Below are positions 350 to 27,530 of a DNA stretch of 33,920 nucleotides, one piece after another (positions within the stretch are counted from its first letter, which is position 1; each line of letters starts with the position of its first letter). Source of the DNA: Clostridia bacterium. Lineage in GTDB: Bacteria; Bacillota; Clostridia; Christensenellales; Aristaeellaceae. A program made the position numbers and the translations under genes. The stretch covers positions 1 to 33,920 of the forward strand of contig JAFUGS010000050.1 of assembly GCA_017469265.1 (NCBI GenBank), read 5' to 3'. A model generated the notes under the pieces. The model was given only the letters and a program-made list of their open reading frames with translations. It did no database searches and was not told where the DNA came from.

Positions 350-553
350 CTTCTTGCCGAAAAAAATATACTGCGTCGGAAAGTTGTAGATGTCGCCCAT
401 TTTCTCGGCAACATCCCAATCCGGCACAGTATCTCCCTTTTCATATTTGATTAAGGTACCACGATTGATGCCTATTTTCTTGCTCGCCTGCTCCAGCGTC
501 ATTCCGGCGTTTACACGTGCCGCTCTGGCAGAAATCCTCGGATACTCGCTCAC
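341..553 (-). CDS. Cro-like XRE-family regulator of the element (70 aa)
   Basis: A single helix-turn-helix domain fills the protein: RVNAGMTLEQASKKIGINRG (recognition region) followed by TLIKYEKGDTVPDW, the classic XRE pattern. The chosen start is the GTG at 553, which has AGGAGG eight bases upstream; an in-frame GTG at 562 overlaps that site. It is transcribed from a consensus promoter (574-602) divergently from a second XRE regulator, an arrangement typical of the CI/Cro switch of temperate phages. By size and position it is the Cro-like partner, and its own promoter contains the palindromic operator. Which of the two regulators binds that operator cannot be told from sequence. Confidence 0.85.
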   Translation of the reverse strand: MSEYPRISARAARVNAGMTLEQASKKIGINRGTLIKYEKGDTVPDWDVAEKMGDIYNFPTQYIFFGKKSV

Positions 554-605: not shown

Positions 606-630
606 AAAAGTTCGGTTTAAGCAAACTTTT
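606..630. promoter_or_regulatory. Imperfect inverted repeat upstream of the CI-like gene promoter
   Basis: Arms AAAAGTT (606-612) and AACTTTT (624-630) flank a partly symmetric centre containing GTTTAA. The repeat ends two bases before the -35 box of the plus-strand promoter. Its sequence differs from the 15-bp palindrome except for the shared GTTTAA core, so it may be a second, weaker operator for either regulator. Confidence 0.45.
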
Positions 631-632
631 TG

Positions 633-662
633 TTGACAAGGCGCAACCTCTTTATTTATAAT
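633..662 (+). promoter_or_regulatory. Promoter of the CI-like regulator and recombinase
   Basis: TTGACA at 633-638, 18-base spacer, TATAAT at 657-662: both boxes match consensus. It lies downstream of the upstream in-frame TTG at 630, which rules that codon out as the start. Confidence 0.85.
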
Positions 663-689
663 AGTTCTTGCAGAACGGAGGTGTTGAAA

Positions 690-1172
690 TTGCCCGAAGA
701 TTCAAGAAGAATTTTTCAAGAGAATCTGAAATACTATATGTCCAGTCTCAACATTACCCAGCAGGACATCGTCAATGCGCTCGGAGTATCTAAGTCCACC
801 GTTTCCGATTGGTGTCACGGAAAGAATTATCCTCGAATTGATGTTATGCAAAGACTGGCTGATTTTCTCGGAGTTGTTATGAACAAGCTTACTATTTCTA
901 ATGACCACTCCGATGAGTATTCTCCTGAAGAAAAGCAGCTTATTTCCAACTATCGAAACTCTTCTAATCGTGTTCGTGCCTCCTTGATGGATATACTCGG
1001 GAATCCGCATAACAAAGAAGTATACTCTCTCACCCCCGACGAATCCCTCCTGATCGAAGGCTACCGTGCCCTCCCCGATCAGGGAAAGCAGTACATGCTC
1101 CAGCAGCTGACGGCTGCAAACGCTATCTATGGGGGAAAGGATCGTTCGTCTGAAGATTCAAGTGTAGGTTGA
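690..1172 (+). CDS. CI-like XRE-family repressor (160 aa)
   Basis: The N-terminal XRE helix-turn-helix is clear: NITQQDIVNALGVSKSTVSD followed by WCHGKNYPRIDVMQRLADFL, residues about 5-65. The C-terminal half has two tandem copies of a short helical motif, SPEEKQLISNYRNSSNRV and TPDESLLIEGYRALPDQG, of the kind seen at the C-terminus of many Firmicutes phage repressors and probably used in oligomerisation. There is no visible LexA-type peptidase domain. The start is TTG at 690, with GGAGG eight bases upstream; the longer reading begins before the promoter. It overlaps the upstream-extended recombinase frame, and the recombinase ATG follows 11 bases after its stop, so the two genes are probably cotranscribed. 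Base composition is more AT-rich than the recombinase. Confidence 0.85.
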   Translation: MPEDSRRIFQENLKYYMSSLNITQQDIVNALGVSKSTVSDWCHGKNYPRIDVMQRLADFLGVVMNKLTISNDHSDEYSPEEKQLISNYRNSSNRVRASLMDILGNPHNKEVYSLTPDESLLIEGYRALPDQGKQYMLQQLTAANAIYGGKDRSSEDSSVG

Positions 1173-19313: not shown

Positions 19314-20525
19314 TTATTCCGCCTGAATCAGCGTACCGTTCAGGTCATAGTATTCCTTCCGGATAACCTGACGCGCTTCGTCATACAGGTAGCGGATTTC
19401 ACAGTATCCCTCGTTTCCGTTGGCCTTTTTTCCGTCCACCCCCAGATAGTCCCGCTCCAGCAGGAAGCCATCCGCGTCCAGCGTCTCCGTATATCCTGCA
19501 ATGCCATGGACATTCAGCATGCCTTCTCCCTGGTCGTTGACATACAGCACCTGGAAAAGCCGCCCCTCCGTGTCGTAGGCATAGGCGCGGCCCGTAACGC
19601 CCTCCGCGTCCTCGCAGGGCTGACCGGCGGCATCCAGGCAGGTCTCCCGGATCAGCTGCCCGTCCTTATTGTATTCACGCTTCACCTGGACACAGCCTTC
19701 CCAAAATGGTATCCGCTGGCCCTGGGCATCATAGCGCACCGCAACACAGACCTGGTCACTGCTCCAGCTTTTCTCCTCGTAAGCGTAGTCACCGCCCATG
19801 GAAATCAGGGTTCCGGACAGGTCATAGTACTTCACGCTGACCTCCCGGTTCTTTTTGTCCAGCTCCCGCTTGCAGCTGGCCCACCCTTCCAGGCACACGG
19901 CGGCGCTGCCATCCGCGTGCTCAAAACGGATACCGGTCACCTTGTTACTCTTGTTCACGCTTTGAATCAGCACCGCGTAACCCAGAGGCGTATCCACGGG
20001 ATTCTTCTTTTCGTCCAGATAGGTGGTCCTGGTCAGGGCGGTTCCACGGTATTCATTCCGCAGCGCGGCGTATCCAAGATCCGGCACCATCACCAGGTCA
20101 TTGGCCTGATCGAAATAATTGGTCAGCCGGATCTTGCCGGAGGAGTTGTAAAGCATGGTCACCCGGGCGTATCCGGCAGTACATTCCGCCTTCTGGCCTT
20201 TGGCGTTCAGGTATACAATCTCCTCCAGCCGGTGCTTATTCCCGTAGGTCAGCATCTGCCCGAAATATCCGCCAATGGCCTCCTTTGGATTTCCGGCTGC
20301 GTCATAGTACTTTTCCGTCACCGTGGTGCCGCTGTAGCTTCGCGTCGCGTATGCATATCCCTCCGGGCCTTCCGTCAGAGCGCCGCCTTCGTCAAGCCAC
20401 TCCACGCGCACCACCTTGCCGCCCTTGGTGGTCTCCTTCCGGGTCGCCTCCGCTCCCGCTTGGAAGCCAGCCAGCACGATCAGCAGCCACATCAGCAGCG
20501 CAGCCATTTTCCTGATTCGAATCAT
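19314..20525 (-). CDS. Secreted protein of about eleven tandem 32-residue repeats
   Basis: A signal peptide (MIRIRKMAALLMWLLIVLAG, cleavage near AGAEA) is followed by a mature protein that divides into about 11 tandem units of 31-32 residues plus a half unit. Each unit has the pattern x4-Tyr-x-Asp-x2-Gly-x6-Gly-Tyr-x6-Tyr-x3-Gly. Examples are EKYYDAAGNPKEAIGGYFGQ, RETCLDAAGQPCEDAEGVTG and ERDYLGVDGKKANGNEGYCE. The spacing recalls MORN/YwqK-like or YD/WG-type beta repeats, but I do not match it to a named family. A regular beta structure is likely; a role in binding at the cell surface is a guess. It has its own promoter and lies upstream of glgB on the same strand (87-base gap), possibly cotranscribed. 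Confidence 0.88.
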   Translation of the reverse strand: MIRIRKMAALLMWLLIVLAGFQAGAEATRKETTKGGKVVRVEWLDEGGALTEGPEGYAYATRSYSGTTVTEKYYDAAGNPKEAIGGYFGQMLTYGNKHRLEEIVYLNAKGQKAECTAGYARVTMLYNSSGKIRLTNYFDQANDLVMVPDLGYAALRNEYRGTALTRTTYLDEKKNPVDTPLGYAVLIQSVNKSNKVTGIRFEHADGSAAVCLEGWASCKRELDKKNREVSVKYYDLSGTLISMGGDYAYEEKSWSSDQVCVAVRYDAQGQRIPFWEGCVQVKREYNKDGQLIRETCLDAAGQPCEDAEGVTGRAYAYDTEGRLFQVLYVNDQGEGMLNVHGIAGYTETLDADGFLLERDYLGVDGKKANGNEGYCEIRYLYDEARQVIRKEYYDLNGTLIQAE

Positions 20526-23157: not shown

Positions 23158-25299
23158 ATGTCCGTTCCCGCCTATATTCTCTCCGCTGTTTTCAGCGACG
23201 AGTCCCCCACCTACCGTTTTCCCTCCGAGCCGGATCCCGGCGATTCCGTGACCATCCGTCTGCGGGTCGCGAAGGACAGCGCCCGCCGGGTCGTGCTGCT
23301 GCTGGAATCGCTGGAAGTCGGTACCCTGATGGTCAAAACCCGTTCCGATGATTTTTTTGACTATTATGAGGCGGGCATCGTCTGCGATGATACCCAGGTG
23401 CTGTACCGTTTTCTGGTGGAGGGGCAGAACAATCTTCGGATCGCCTTCGATAAAAACGGTGCCCGGGCCACGGAGGACGGCTCCATGCCCGAGTATAACA
23501 CGGTGTACGCCTTCCGTTTTCAGCCCGGTTTTCATGTCCCCGCCTGGGCCAAGGGCGCGGTACAGTACCAGATTTTTACCGACAGGTTTTACAACGGCGA
23601 TCCCTCCAACGACGTGACGGACAATGAGTATTATTACACCGTTGGCCACTCCAAGCACGTGGCGGACTGGGACGCCCTGCCCACGGACACCGACTTCCGC
23701 TGTTTCTACGGCGGTGACCTGCAGGGCATTATCGACAAGCTGGATTACCTGCAGGGGCTCGGCGTCCAGGTGCTGTACCTGAACCCGATCTTTGTCTCCC
23801 CTTCCTCCCATAAGTATGACACCCAGGACTATGAGCATGTGGATCCTCATTTTGGCGTCATTACCGATGACGTGCTCCACGCCATGCAATCCTGGGAAAA
23901 GCATAACGGTTACGCCCCCCGCTATATTCGCCGGGTTACCTCCATGGAAAACCTGGAGAAAAGCGATGACCTTTTCGCCACCCTCTGCCGGAAGCTTCAT
24001 GCCCGTGGCATGCGCATTATTCTGGACGGCGTATTCAATCACTGCGGGTCCTTCAACAAATGGATGGATTACGAGGGAATCTATCTGGGCAAAGCGGGCT
24101 TCCAGCCCGGCGCTTTCCAGAGCGTACACAGCCCCTACCGTTCCTTCTTCCACTTTAACAATTCCGGCAACGGCCGCAGCCCGGCCTATGAAGGCTGGTG
24201 GGGGTACGCTACCCTGCCCAAGCTGAATTACGAGGCTTCTCCCGCCCTGTGTGAAAAGATTTATCGAATCGCGGAAAAGTGGGTCTCCCCGCCCTATCGT
24301 GTGGACGGCTGGCGGCTGGATGTGGCCGCGGATCTGGGCCATTCCGCCGACTTTAACCATTCCTTCTGGCGCACCTTCCGCCAGCGGGTGAAGGCCGTGA
24401 ACCCGGACTGCCTTATCATCGCGGAGCATTACGGCGATCCATCCTCCTGGCTGGAGGGGGATCAGTGGGATTCCGTCATGAACTACGACGCTTTCATGGA
24501 ACCGGTCACCTGGTTTCTTACTGGCATGGAGAAGCATTCCGACGCCACCCGGGATGACCTGTATCAGAACGGCACCGCCTTCTTCGACATCATGCGGGAT
24601 AAAATGGCCCGGCTGACCTATCCCTCTCTGATGTGCGCCATGAACGAGCTGAGCAATCATGACCATTCCAGGTTCCTGACCCGTACCAACCGAATGGTTG
24701 GCCGCTGCACCACCGTGGGCTCCGAGGCCGCCTCCGTCGGCATCAACAAGGGTGTCTTCCGGGAGGCGGTGGTTCTGCAGATGTCCTGGCCCGGCGCACC
24801 AACGGTGTACTATGCTGACGAGGCGGGTCAGGTAGGCTGGACGGATCCGGACAACCGGCGCACCTATCCCTGGGGGCATGAGGATACATCCCTGATCCTG
24901 CTGCATAAGGATCTGATCCGGCTCCGCCAGGCGCTGCCCGCAATGGTCAGCGGCTGTCTGAAACCGCTGCTGGCGGATTACGGGCGGATTGCCTATGCCC
25001 GTTTCACCGATCAGCAGCGCCTCGTGGTCGCCATGAACAACACTTCCGGCTGGACTTCCTTCCGGCTCTATGTCCGGGATGCCGGCGCGCCGGAGGAGGA
25101 ACTTTTCTTCCGCCGCGTCCTGACCGGCGCGGACGGCCATACCCTGAAGCCGGAGGTCTGCGCCCCCGTGACCGACGGGTACATTTCCTTTGACCTTCCA
25201 CCTTTCTCCGCCGTCATTCTGGCCAATGAACCCCCGGTGAGCACCCCGGTTCAACCGGACCCGGCCGCTTCAAAGCCCGCCAAGCCGGAGAAACGTTAA
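23158..25299 (+). CDS. GH13 alpha-amylase / neopullulanase-like enzyme, cytoplasmic
   Basis: Hydrolyses alpha-glucans such as maltodextrins or cyclodextrins. The 713-residue protein has no signal peptide. An N-terminal beta domain (residues about 1-125, CBM34-like) leads to the barrel, which opens WAKGAVQYQIFTDRFYNGDP. The four GH13 regions are GVFNHCG, YRVDGWRLDVAADLGHSADF (nucleophile Asp388), IIAEHYGDPSSWL (acid Glu423) and ELSNHDHSRFLTRTNR (Asp502). An insertion near residue 245-275 and a Pro/Lys-rich C-terminal tail are unusual details. The ATG at 23158 has GAGGAGG seven bases upstream; the frame stays open far upstream, but antisense to the ATPase gene. Confidence 0.94.
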   Translation: MSVPAYILSAVFSDESPTYRFPSEPDPGDSVTIRLRVAKDSARRVVLLLESLEVGTLMVKTRSDDFFDYYEAGIVCDDTQVLYRFLVEGQNNLRIAFDKNGARATEDGSMPEYNTVYAFRFQPGFHVPAWAKGAVQYQIFTDRFYNGDPSNDVTDNEYYYTVGHSKHVADWDALPTDTDFRCFYGGDLQGIIDKLDYLQGLGVQVLYLNPIFVSPSSHKYDTQDYEHVDPHFGVITDDVLHAMQSWEKHNGYAPRYIRRVTSMENLEKSDDLFATLCRKLHARGMRIILDGVFNHCGSFNKWMDYEGIYLGKAGFQPGAFQSVHSPYRSFFHFNNSGNGRSPAYEGWWGYATLPKLNYEASPALCEKIYRIAEKWVSPPYRVDGWRLDVAADLGHSADFNHSFWRTFRQRVKAVNPDCLIIAEHYGDPSSWLEGDQWDSVMNYDAFMEPVTWFLTGMEKHSDATRDDLYQNGTAFFDIMRDKMARLTYPSLMCAMNELSNHDHSRFLTRTNRMVGRCTTVGSEAASVGINKGVFREAVVLQMSWPGAPTVYYADEAGQVGWTDPDNRRTYPWGHEDTSLILLHKDLIRLRQALPAMVSGCLKPLLADYGRIAYARFTDQQRLVVAMNNTSGWTSFRLYVRDAGAPEEELFFRRVLTGADGHTLKPEVCAPVTDGYISFDLPPFSAVILANEPPVSTPVQPDPAASKPAKPEKR

Positions 25300-25404
25300 G
25301 AAAGCGCTGACCAAAGCGCCCCATGAAGCCCGAACCGCTTCGTCCACGCGAATGCGGTTCTGGCCCTGATAAAGCACGCTGCGCGCAGAACCGATTCAGC
25401 TGGC

Positions 25405-25440
25405 GCAAGAAAAGCCCGGGACTTCTGCCCCGGGCTTTTC
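25405..25440. terminator. Bidirectional terminator between amylase and six-HTH gene
   Basis: Stem AAGAAAAGCCCGGG (25405-25418) with CCCGGGCTTTTCTT (25427-25440). A-rich and T-rich arms make it work in both directions for the convergent genes. The rest of the 25300-25535 gap shows a weaker AACCGC/GCGGTT inverted repeat and no gene. Confidence 0.9.
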
Positions 25441-25535
25441 TTGTGCCTCTTTTCTCTGTCTTCTCCCGAGATTTCTCCCTTGAGGTTCTGATTCCTGCTT
25501 TTCCGGCTTCACCCCGTGCTTCCCGCGGTTTTTGC

Positions 25536-26837
25536 TTACGCTTCTATGGTCTCCGCCTCGTCCTTTGCTTCCTCACGCCGGACCATTTCATCCGCGATGG
25601 CCTGCAATATTTCGCTCCGGGTGGCTTCGTCCACCTGTCCCTTTTCGATCAGGCTGATGCGGCTCTGGGGGAAGCCCACCAGGTCTCCCACCTGCTTCTG
25701 GCTCAGTCCGGCGTTTTCCCGGGCTTCGCGGATCTCCCGCCCAAGCAGCACCTGAGTCGTCTTTTTGACCCGGCGCCCCAGGCCGCCGCTGTGCCGCGGC
25801 GCGCCGTGAATCCGGCGGATAATTTCCTCTGCCCGTTTTTCCGTCACGTTTCCCAGCTCCATCCGGCCCACAGCGCTCTCCGGAACCCGCAGAATCACTC
25901 CCAGCTCCTTCTGGGTCATGCCGGCGTTTTTCCGTTCCTCACGGATCCGGAGCCCCGCCTCCTTGCTGAAGGTTTCCTCATTCTCCGGCAGTTTGACGGT
26001 TTTCTGCATCATCGCGATCATTTCCTTCGCCCGGCTGACGGATATATGTCCACATTCCATGGCTGCCAGCGTCCCGGGCGCAACCCCTGCCAGCTCCGCC
26101 GCCTCCTTCAGCTTCAGGCCGGCATTCTTCCGGGCCTCCCGCACCTGCAGCCCCCAGTCCTTCCCGGTCATCTGGGGCCGCATCAGGCGGATCAGGGCCT
26201 CCGCCTTCTCCGGCTTGATGTATCCGCTCTCAATCTGGGCGATGCGGCTGACGGATACGCCGGCCATCTGCGCCAGCTCGTCCCGGCTGACACCCGCTTC
26301 CTTCCTGGCTTCCTTGACCCGGAGCCCGGCTTCCCGGTTTGGCGCGTATCTCGTCGAGGCGGATTCCTCCGTCTCACCTTCCCCGCGGCGCCGTCTGCCT
26401 TCCTTTTCCGGTTTCAGGATACAGATTCCCTTGTTCCGGCCGTCACCGTACATCAGCCACTTCCGGTTCATGCCCACGGTTTTTTCGATCTTGACGCCCA
26501 GGGCCCGGGTAATCTTTCCGCTTCTTTCCAGCTCCGTCAACTGCGCGGGCTCCATCTCCAGCGCGGCAGCCATCCGCTCCAGGGACAGCCCCTGGCTGGC
26601 CCGCCATTCCTCCGCCCGCTCCCGGACGGTATTCTGCACATAGCTGTCCAGAAACGGGTCTATATCCGGATCCGTCATAATGGCAGGATTAATCGGAAAT
26701 GCCGCGATGAAAGGCTGAAGCAGATAGGTGGATCCTGTCTCCTCGCTGTCCAGCACATCTTGCTTAGGTACGCCAAGCTCTTCAGCGACCTGCGCTACGG
26801 TCAGCCCCATTACTTCCCGCAGATCTGTTAAATTCAT
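25536..26837 (-). CDS. Regulator with six XRE-type helix-turn-helix units
   Basis: A 433-residue soluble protein made almost only of helix-turn-helix units. Units 3 to 6 are clear: about 169-220 (AGLRVKEARKEAGVSRDELA), 227-277 (WGLQVREARKNAGLKLKEAA), 293-343 (AGLRIREERKNAGMTQKELG) and 364-416 (LGREIREARENAGLSQKQVG), each followed by a recognition helix and an IExG-like end. Unit 1 (1-46, MNLTDLREVMGLTVAQVAEE) and unit 2 (70-130, ERAEEWRASQGLSLERMAAA) are more divergent. A basic linker (about 138-165) separates units 2 and 3. There is no ligand, peptidase or membrane domain. The ATG at 26837 has AAAGGA seven bases upstream. I know of no characterised regulator of this make-up; DNA binding at several adjacent sites is inferred. 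Confidence 0.9.
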   Translation of the reverse strand: MNLTDLREVMGLTVAQVAEELGVPKQDVLDSEETGSTYLLQPFIAAFPINPAIMTDPDIDPFLDSYVQNTVRERAEEWRASQGLSLERMAAALEMEPAQLTELERSGKITRALGVKIEKTVGMNRKWLMYGDGRNKGICILKPEKEGRRRRGEGETEESASTRYAPNREAGLRVKEARKEAGVSRDELAQMAGVSVSRIAQIESGYIKPEKAEALIRLMRPQMTGKDWGLQVREARKNAGLKLKEAAELAGVAPGTLAAMECGHISVSRAKEMIAMMQKTVKLPENEETFSKEAGLRIREERKNAGMTQKELGVILRVPESAVGRMELGNVTEKRAEEIIRRIHGAPRHSGGLGRRVKKTTQVLLGREIREARENAGLSQKQVGDLVGFPQSRISLIEKGQVDEATRSEILQAIADEMVRREEAKDEAETIEA

Positions 26838-26949
26838 TTTATTTCCTTTCATCAAAACAATGATCGGTATGGATAAAGGCGCCCCTCGATTATGAAAGAA
26901 AAATACATAATCCCCCAGACGTCGAAATACGGTCCGCTCAACCATTTCT

Positions 26950-26979
26950 ATTATACACAGGTATTCGCCGTCTTGACAA
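26950..26979 (-). promoter_or_regulatory. Promoter of the six-HTH regulator
   Basis: Minus strand TTGTCA (26979-26974), 18-base spacer, TATAAT (26955-26950), leaving a leader of about 105 bases before the ATG. Its -35 box lies on the same bases as that of the divergent tadA promoter. Confidence 0.7.
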
Positions 26980-27001
26980 GTCTTTTTTCCAAGTATATAT
27001 T
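26973..27001 (+). promoter_or_regulatory. tadA promoter
   Basis: TTGACA (26973-26978), 17-base spacer, TATATT (26996-27001), about 50 bases before the tadA ATG. Confidence 0.8.
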
Positions 27002-27053
27002 TGAAGTTGTTTTCATTGGATTACGCATTTCTTGCGTTCAGGAGGCCGGAAGC

Positions 27054-27530
27054 ATGACAGGAATGGCCGTGGCGCTGCGGGAAGCGGAAAAGGCCCTCGC
27101 GGAGGGTGAGGTGCCCGTTGGCGCCGCGCTGATGCGGGGTCAGGAGCTGCTCTGGGCGGATCATAACCGCCGGGAACAGCTGCATGATCCCACCGCTCAC
27201 GCGGAGATGCTCTGTCTTCGGCACGGGGCCGAAAAAGCAGGAAACTGGCGCCTGGCGGACTGCACCCTGTATGTCACTCTGGAGCCCTGCCCCATGTGTG
27301 CGGGTGCCCTGGTCATGAGCCGCGTCGGCAAGGTCGTTTACGGGGCGTCCGATCCTGAGAAAGGCTGCTGCGGCAGCGTATACGACTTCCCGGGGGATCC
27401 CGCCCTTTCCGCAGGTACCCGCTGGCAGGCCGGCGAGTGCGCTTCCGCCTGCGGACAGCTGCTCTCCTCCTTCTTCCGCGCCACCCGCGAAACCAGGGCC
27501 GGTGTCCCGGCCGGAAAGGAAACAGAATGA
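27054..27530 (+). CDS. tadA: tRNA-specific adenosine deaminase
   Basis: Deaminates adenosine 34 to inosine in the anticodon of tRNA-Arg, allowing reading of CGU, CGC and CGA. The zinc site is complete: DPTAHAEMLCLRHGAEKAGN (His and catalytic Glu) and YVTLEPCPMCAGALVMSRVG (two Cys). The segment VVYGASDPEKGCCGSVYDF is typical of TadA. At 158 residues it is full length. The ATG at 27054 has AGGAGG eight bases upstream; the upstream in-frame extension passes through the promoter. Its stop overlaps the start of the next gene (ATGA). Confidence 0.95.
   Translation: MTGMAVALREAEKALAEGEVPVGAALMRGQELLWADHNRREQLHDPTAHAEMLCLRHGAEKAGNWRLADCTLYVTLEPCPMCAGALVMSRVGKVVYGASDPEKGCCGSVYDFPGDPALSAGTRWQAGECASACGQLLSSFFRATRETRAGVPAGKETE

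Follow-up and report, generated by a model that had tools for sequence, protein, structure and literature searches.

Bacterial XRE-type helix-turn-helix (HTH) regulators are usually pictured as dimers whose chains carry one or two HTH units each, and regulators of the C.BclI, C.AhdI, HipB and SinR type have one HTH per chain and bind DNA as dimers. The protein described here has the same fold as these regulators (HTH_3, PF01381; HTH_31, PF13560), with its units 3–6 over the HTH_3 cut-off, but whereas XRE regulators such as C.BclI and HipB have one HTH per chain, six or seven are found here. More than one XRE HTH per chain is also a feature of Wmk from the Wolbachia prophage WO, for which two predicted HTH domains are described (PMC8555981), compared with six here; the window protein scored only 26.7 bits against the Wmk model NF047948, for which the cut-off is 300. 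A literature search, from which subscription journals were mostly absent, showed among the papers listed none on chains with at least three XRE units. The XRE fold itself is an established one, of which the six- and seven-unit family represents a new form.

The gene was found in a stretch of 33 920 nucleotides of Clostridia bacterium contig JAFUGS010000050.1 (the window), for which a first-pass annotation had placed a protein with six tandem HTH units at 25536..26837 without giving a strand. The coordinates hold and the strand is minus: the ATG lies at 26837, the stop codon ends at 25536 and the product has 433 aa. The G+C content of the gene is 61.7 %, and a frame of 502 aa on the plus strand of the same DNA is likewise open. 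The minus frame is the real gene, because it has XRE matches and orthologs and because the differences between orthologs fall mostly at third codon positions. Differences at codon positions 1, 2 and 3 were 0.22–0.29, 0.17–0.22 and 0.46–0.52, respectively, in seven pairs of orthologs (all within-clade), and 0.25, 0.20 and 0.50 between the window and genome G027 over 433 codons. The gene is under purifying constraint.

An AlphaFold2 model of the window protein, built on an alignment of nine sequences, has six helical bundles connected by flexible linkers (mean pLDDT 76.4, pTM 0.33), with helices within residues 3–54, 71–130, 168–219, 225–279, 292–345 and 359–432, and with pLDDT below 50 at residues 43–57, 59–67, 145–163 and 348–357. 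Units 3–6 are modelled with only four helices each, and a long C-terminal helix follows unit 6, up to residue 432. The model of a seven-unit ortholog has seven bundles (pLDDT 78.3, pTM 0.25), and in view of the low pTM of both models no fixed packing among the units is predicted. The top matches of the window model in a Foldseek search of the PDB were mostly single XRE-domain proteins (C.BclI, HipB and C.AhdI); none reached E 0.001 (best E 0.12), because only one unit of the 433-aa chain was aligned. The only PDB sequence match of the profile at E 0.001 was the designed HTH DNA binder DBP48 (PDB 8tac; E 6.2e-6, to the unit 3 region), which is a single-domain protein of 70 residues, unlike the multi-unit natural chain.

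Scanned singly against Pfam HTH_3 (PF01381; curated cut-off 23 bits), units 3, 4, 5 and 6 scored 42.6, 27.8, 27.3 and 37.4 bits, each exceeding the cut-off, whereas units 1 and 2 of the window protein, with 12.9 and 17.9 bits, remained under it. In the ortholog from G032, unit 1 passed HTH_3 (24.1 bits), while unit 2 was under the cut-off of both HTH_3 (16.3 bits) and HTH_19 (24.3 bits, cut-off 30.2). Four units (3–6) are therefore certain XRE units and units 1 and 2 are probable ones; the six HTH stretches of the initial whole-chain Pfam scan were those passing a permissive E-value of 10. The six units reported in the first-pass annotation are thus borne out near the places named, with six bundles in the model that are XRE-like also for units 1 and 2 (unit 1 at modest confidence), whilst profile scans of the separate segments support units 3–6 but, in the window protein, not units 1 and 2. 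The R-E-A-R-K-x-A-G core ascribed to the last four units was recovered as KEARKEAG, REARKNAG, REERKNAG and REARENAG in units 3–6, and neither the Pfam and NCBIfam scans nor the model revealed any domain besides HTH, in agreement with the reported lack of a ligand-binding or enzymatic domain. The description of the chain as HTH units and almost nothing else was nearly right, except that two linkers are strongly conserved over the eight orthologs compared, with nine of 21 residues invariant at 48–68 and 14 of 16 at 122–137, the latter stretch including NRKWLMYGDGR. Within its own genome this is the sole frame with more than one HTH_3 match, and it carries four of the 32 matches found at E 0.01.

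Along the minus strand, unit 1 (residues 1–46; 26700..26837) is acidic and XRE-like, with helices at residues 3–10, 14–21, 25–34 and 40–46; it is the least certain part of the model, with a block pLDDT of about 55–72 over residues 1–40 and lower values beyond. It is followed by linker 1 (residues 47–69; 26631..26699), which carries the conserved pattern AFPINP...DPFL...Q and was modelled mostly at low confidence. Unit 2 (residues 70–130; 26448..26630) is weak in sequence, and its five helices form an XRE-like block with a pLDDT of 85–91. It is closed by the motif NRKWLMYGDGRxKG (residues 124–137; 26427..26468), which is rich in invariant positions in the ortholog alignment and has the counterpart HRKWLMYGDTRDKG in the three-unit relative L047. 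Unit 3 (residues 168–220; 26178..26336) has the recognition helix SVSRIAQIES, which is conserved between clades, and unit 4 (residues 226–279; 26001..26162) and unit 5 (residues 292–345; 25803..25964) have recognition helices that depend on the clade. Unit 6 (residues 359–416; 25590..25763) also matches HTH_31 (44.0 bits).

A protein search of 61 genomes gave matches in 14 at E 0.001, eight of them long (own genome included), and a profile search of the bacterial family gave matches in 11 of 308 genomes at E 1e-15. The architecture is present in related genomes, with three, six or seven units. Six-unit orthologs were found in three of the 11 genomes (G000, G014 and G027) and seven-unit orthologs in six (G007, G018, G019, G026, G032 and, cut by a contig end, G064); the match in G069 is a contig-edge fragment, and G274, which belongs to another genus, has an open frame of 228 aa holding units 1–3 only. 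The three-unit relative L047 is shorter but truly homologous to units 1–3 (35–43 % identity). The unit count is constant inside each of the six- and seven-unit clades. A scan of named genomes yielded eight loci, all from Clostridia or Clostridiales metagenome-assembled genomes (the own record possibly being left out), and part of the gut of a goat, sheep or roe deer is mentioned in four of the eight titles. At the order level three of 396 genomes matched, all from the same genus, and at the class level four of 391 did, namely the own genome and three with partial matches (133, 53 and 66 residues); neither search gave a full-length match outside the family. No match to the six-unit chain was present in the viral contigs, phages and plasmids searched, so that a mobile-element origin of the gene has no support.

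In order to follow the history of the units, a tree was reconstructed from 50-residue units and 20 other XRE segments; unit 2 was left out, as it could not be aligned without gaps. Every unit position tested (1 and 3–7) was monophyletic over the orthologs (support 0.79–0.99), and the duplications thus appear to be old, in keeping with the earlier view that the units had diverged rather than been duplicated recently. Units 3–7 and the third unit of the G274 protein formed one clade (0.86), within which unit 6 paired with unit 7 (0.72), and unit 1 grouped with G274 unit 1 (0.90). The third unit of G274 nested beside units 3 and 4 (0.79), not at the base of the clade; since it falls inside the clade of units 3–7, the G274 chain may have arisen through shortening of a longer one, or it may be a relic of a three-unit ancestor, a choice that 50 columns cannot decide. 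The seventh unit could represent either a gain in one clade or a loss in the other. Identity among units 3–7 within a chain was 0.33–0.40, compared with 0.24–0.28 to 12 other XRE domains, but these 12 domains are 0.33 identical among themselves, so that the common origin of units 3–7 rests on the tree and not on identity.

The units also differ in charge and conservation. Across the eight orthologs, unit 1 has a net charge of −6 to −7 in every case, with acidic residues within its recognition helix and with D30, E32 and E33 invariant; unit 2 ranges from 0 to −4, and units 3–7 from 0 to +5 in 36 of 37 cases, the exception being unit 6 of the window protein (−1). Mean identity is highest for unit 1 (0.76, compared with 0.47–0.66 for units 2–7) and lowest for unit 2 (0.47), although the motif that closes unit 2 is nearly invariant. 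Six of the eight orthologs are basic (pI 8.6–9.5), whereas the window protein has 70 K+R and 70 D+E (pI 6.9) and the G027 protein has a pI of 5.25.

Recognition helices of different units within one chain are only 0.28 identical. Between the clades (three six-unit chains against five seven-unit chains; P values from column shuffles over eight related sequences, uncorrected for several tests), the recognition helix of unit 3 was conserved at 0.86 against 0.51 for the rest of the unit (P 0.002) and that of unit 6 at 0.76 against 0.55 (P 0.08), while those of units 4 and 5 reached only 0.41 and 0.37. Within the six- and seven-unit clades, respectively, the recognition helix of unit 4 was conserved at 0.90 and 0.92, and that of unit 5 at 0.80 and 0.68 (rest of unit 5, 0.78 and 0.73). 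In each of these two units the recognition helix had changed between the clades by more than the rest of the unit, and its surplus of between-clade change over change within a clade had, by the same uncorrected shuffles, a P of about 0.01. Among units 3–6, then, the recognition helix of two units holds and that of two changes, and when the four are pooled the recognition helix does not stand out in conservation from other blocks of 10 residues (rank 20 of 41). The change in units 4 and 5 fits the pattern expected of an altered binding site. As far as sequence comparison goes, the helix statistics fit a DNA specificity particular to each unit, and they would fit protein contacts particular to each unit as well.

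The gene appears to have a sigma-70-like promoter (TTGTCA, spacer of 18, TATAAT; 26950..26979, minus strand) by consensus scan, one of three promoter-like sites found in 25200–27100 where 0.3 would be expected, and similar hexamers were seen by eye upstream of the other six-unit orthologs. Among ten genes inspected by eye, the first hexamer is TTGTCA in the three six-unit genes (TTGCCA in G014) and TAGACA in five of six seven-unit genes, being absent in G019; the second is TATAAT or TATACT. Upstream of the window gene lies a divergent deaminase gene (Pfam), which may be read as tadA-like, and its promoter has TTGACA at 26973 on the plus strand, so that the −35 hexamers of the two promoters overlap (26973–26979). 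The overlapping −35-like hexamers form the near-palindrome CTTGACAAG at 26972–26980, and because of this overlap one site could control both the tadA-like and the six-unit genes. By eye, no repeated operator was apparent in the 320 bp upstream of ten genes, and the 216-bp upstream region contained no direct repeats and only two imperfect inverted pairs of 10–11 bp as possible DNA sites. Downstream, toward a convergent alpha-amylase-family gene (Pfam), a strong hairpin of 19 pairs with a T-rich tail (25402..25447; one of four found by consensus scan, against 2.2 expected) is a possible shared terminator.

Near the copies in relatives, genes for DegV, seryl-tRNA synthetase, RpiB, HI0933-like and MIP proteins were recognized (Pfam); the neighbours that were identified have housekeeping or metabolic roles. 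The flanks vary from one relative to another, and the neighbours scanned included no constant partner gene. Ten tadA loci from nine of ten genomes, covering about 1.5 kb per side where the contig allows, held no piece of the six-unit gene, and a piece of the alpha-amylase-family gene was present in only one of them (L087, on the far side); on these grounds no ancestral empty site could be named among the ten.

Two other features of the window may be mentioned. Two XRE frames (365–526, minus strand, and 630–1172, plus strand) lie in the region 365–2755, which includes a large serine recombinase with Resolvase and Recombinase domains (Pfam) and is perhaps the edge of an integrated element. At 19314–20525 on the minus strand, beside a P-type ATPase gene, a 403-aa protein shows by eye many repeats of the form GYA....Y..........YLD..G; it had no Pfam match at E 1e-4.

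We consider it somewhat more probable than otherwise that the six-unit protein is a poly-HTH regulator, for which DNA binding is predicted. Units 3–6 (3–7 in the seven-unit form) would bind DNA, each contacting a separate half-site, and the complete chain might thereby recognize with high affinity either one long composite site or a cluster of sites, without the usual dimer. Units 1 and 2, with their acidic to neutral charge and the strongly conserved linkers attached to them, would not read DNA and would instead make protein contacts, whether by self-association or with RNA polymerase or other XRE proteins. The outcome would likely be repression or architectural control at a few loci, one candidate target being the promoter of the gene itself, which lies back to back with the tadA promoter. 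The idea of six DNA-reading units therefore needs qualification: six HTH-like units are present, but with unit 1 acidic, unit 2 neutral to acidic and both linker-tied, these two seem to be of a different kind, and four readers (five in the seven-unit form) is probably the better count. Against the regulator reading, a recognition helix could also serve as a protein contact face, and the identified neighbours, being housekeeping or metabolic, name no target. A more specific proposal, to which we give a tentative place as a minority possibility, is that of a modular reader made up of four or five related XRE units with a half-site for each, in the manner of poly-zinc-finger proteins, and in which specificity evolves unit by unit; the occurrence of close relatives with seven or three copies suggests such a predicted modular DNA reader. 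If it is correct, the sub-sites read by units 3 and 6 would be common to the two clades, whereas those read by units 4 and 5 would not.

Other explanations account for parts of these data. The chain could be a scaffold or titrator: its units would form pairs with XRE regulators of the single-domain kind, which dimerize by way of this fold and would thus be held or sequestered, and the acidic unit 1 would be a DNA mimic. The acidity of unit 1, its three invariant acidic residues and its rank as the most conserved unit are as expected from this, and the 28 other HTH_3 matches in the own genome are possible partners, but units 3–7 stay neutral to basic, the recognition helix of unit 3 is strongly kept and unit 2 is the least conserved of all. 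XRE proteins usually dimerize via helix 5 or the C-terminal part, and the prediction of only four helices in units 3–6 would also disfavour pairing; overall we regard a scaffold as unlikely. An architectural, nucleoid-type protein, in which low-specificity units on a long flexible chain bridge or compact distant DNA, is similarly improbable. It would agree with the beads-on-a-string models and their low pTM, with the variation in unit number among relatives, with an apparent own promoter in the absence of a constant partner gene among the neighbours identified and with the basic pI of most orthologs, yet unit-specific recognition helices, chiefly that of unit 3, would be needless for low-specificity binding, only 11 of 308 family genomes have the gene, and neither the balanced charge of the window protein nor the acidic pI of the G027 protein is what such a role would lead one to expect. 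Automatic annotation would suggest an ordinary antitoxin or phage-type repressor with extra units arising from neutral duplication, given summed scores of 88.1 bits for TIGR03070 (Y4mF/HipB-like antitoxin; cut-off 71.65) and 80.1 bits for TIGR03830 (MqsA-like antitoxin; cut-off 61.8), together with PHROG matches to phage repressors. These two scores are, however, sums of five and four partial stretches, respectively. For TIGR03070 there was no whole-length match and the best stretch covered positions 3–39 of 58; for TIGR03830 it covered only 58–119 of 127, without the CxxCG part, and no CxxCG motif of the MqsA family was seen by eye in the window protein. The NCBIfam antitoxin label was accordingly rejected, its matches being partial and added up over units. 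The strongest PADLOC and PHROG matches (HTH_VI, 78.6 bits; capH, 77.3; phrog_8, 132.3), whose best stretches cover parts of the chain, look like generic HTH matches. With no toxins among the identified neighbours (part of the neighbours scanned), no match in the viral contigs, phages and plasmids, and a constant unit count within each of the two clades, we consider this last explanation very improbable.

Multi-XRE chains also occur more widely in the lineage. A looser search with units 1–3 gave matches in 19 of 308 family genomes, including other multi-XRE chains in sister genera: L058, L059, L063 and L067 with about three XRE units each, L062 (443 aa) with about five by eye and with four HTH_3 stretches that pass 0.01, and L077 (420 aa) with three HTH_3 matches and at least three units. 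Three-unit chains are not confined to the family, as the source of the 133-residue match at the class level is a 263-aa frame from another family (L084 1270–2058, minus strand) with three XRE units by eye. These chains follow the same principle as the window protein, L047 being the true homolog among them; L058 and L067 are probably separate chains, as their units are only 0.22–0.23 identical to units 3–7, less than single XRE domains (0.24–0.28). Three genomes were searched whole for frames with more than one HTH_3 match, which numbered three in G273 and two in G278, while none of the 37 HTH_3 matches in G002, a near-complete genome that belongs to the genus of the window and lacks the gene, shares a frame with another. 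With multi-XRE chains in sister genera and in another family, long XRE chains either arose repeatedly or are an ancient trait. In G278, a row of six short frames of 121–156 aa, each with an HTH_3 match, stands at an end of contig C50 (about 24494–27381, within L078), adjoining a frame that by eye resembles a serine recombinase; such an array of single XRE genes is a possible source for fused chains. After two three-unit XRE genes of sister genera there is a small gene of similar sequence (..LALLAVCEDR..; L058 1599–1994 and L080 5813–6115), which is a possible partner gene of those chains; the L058 copy had no Pfam match.

For annotation, these chains are a case in which summed HMM scores can mislabel multi-XRE proteins as antitoxins. 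A lineage with chains of three to seven distinct XRE units would be the prokaryotic equivalent of poly-finger readers, and such chains would provide a direct test case for specificity that evolves one module at a time.
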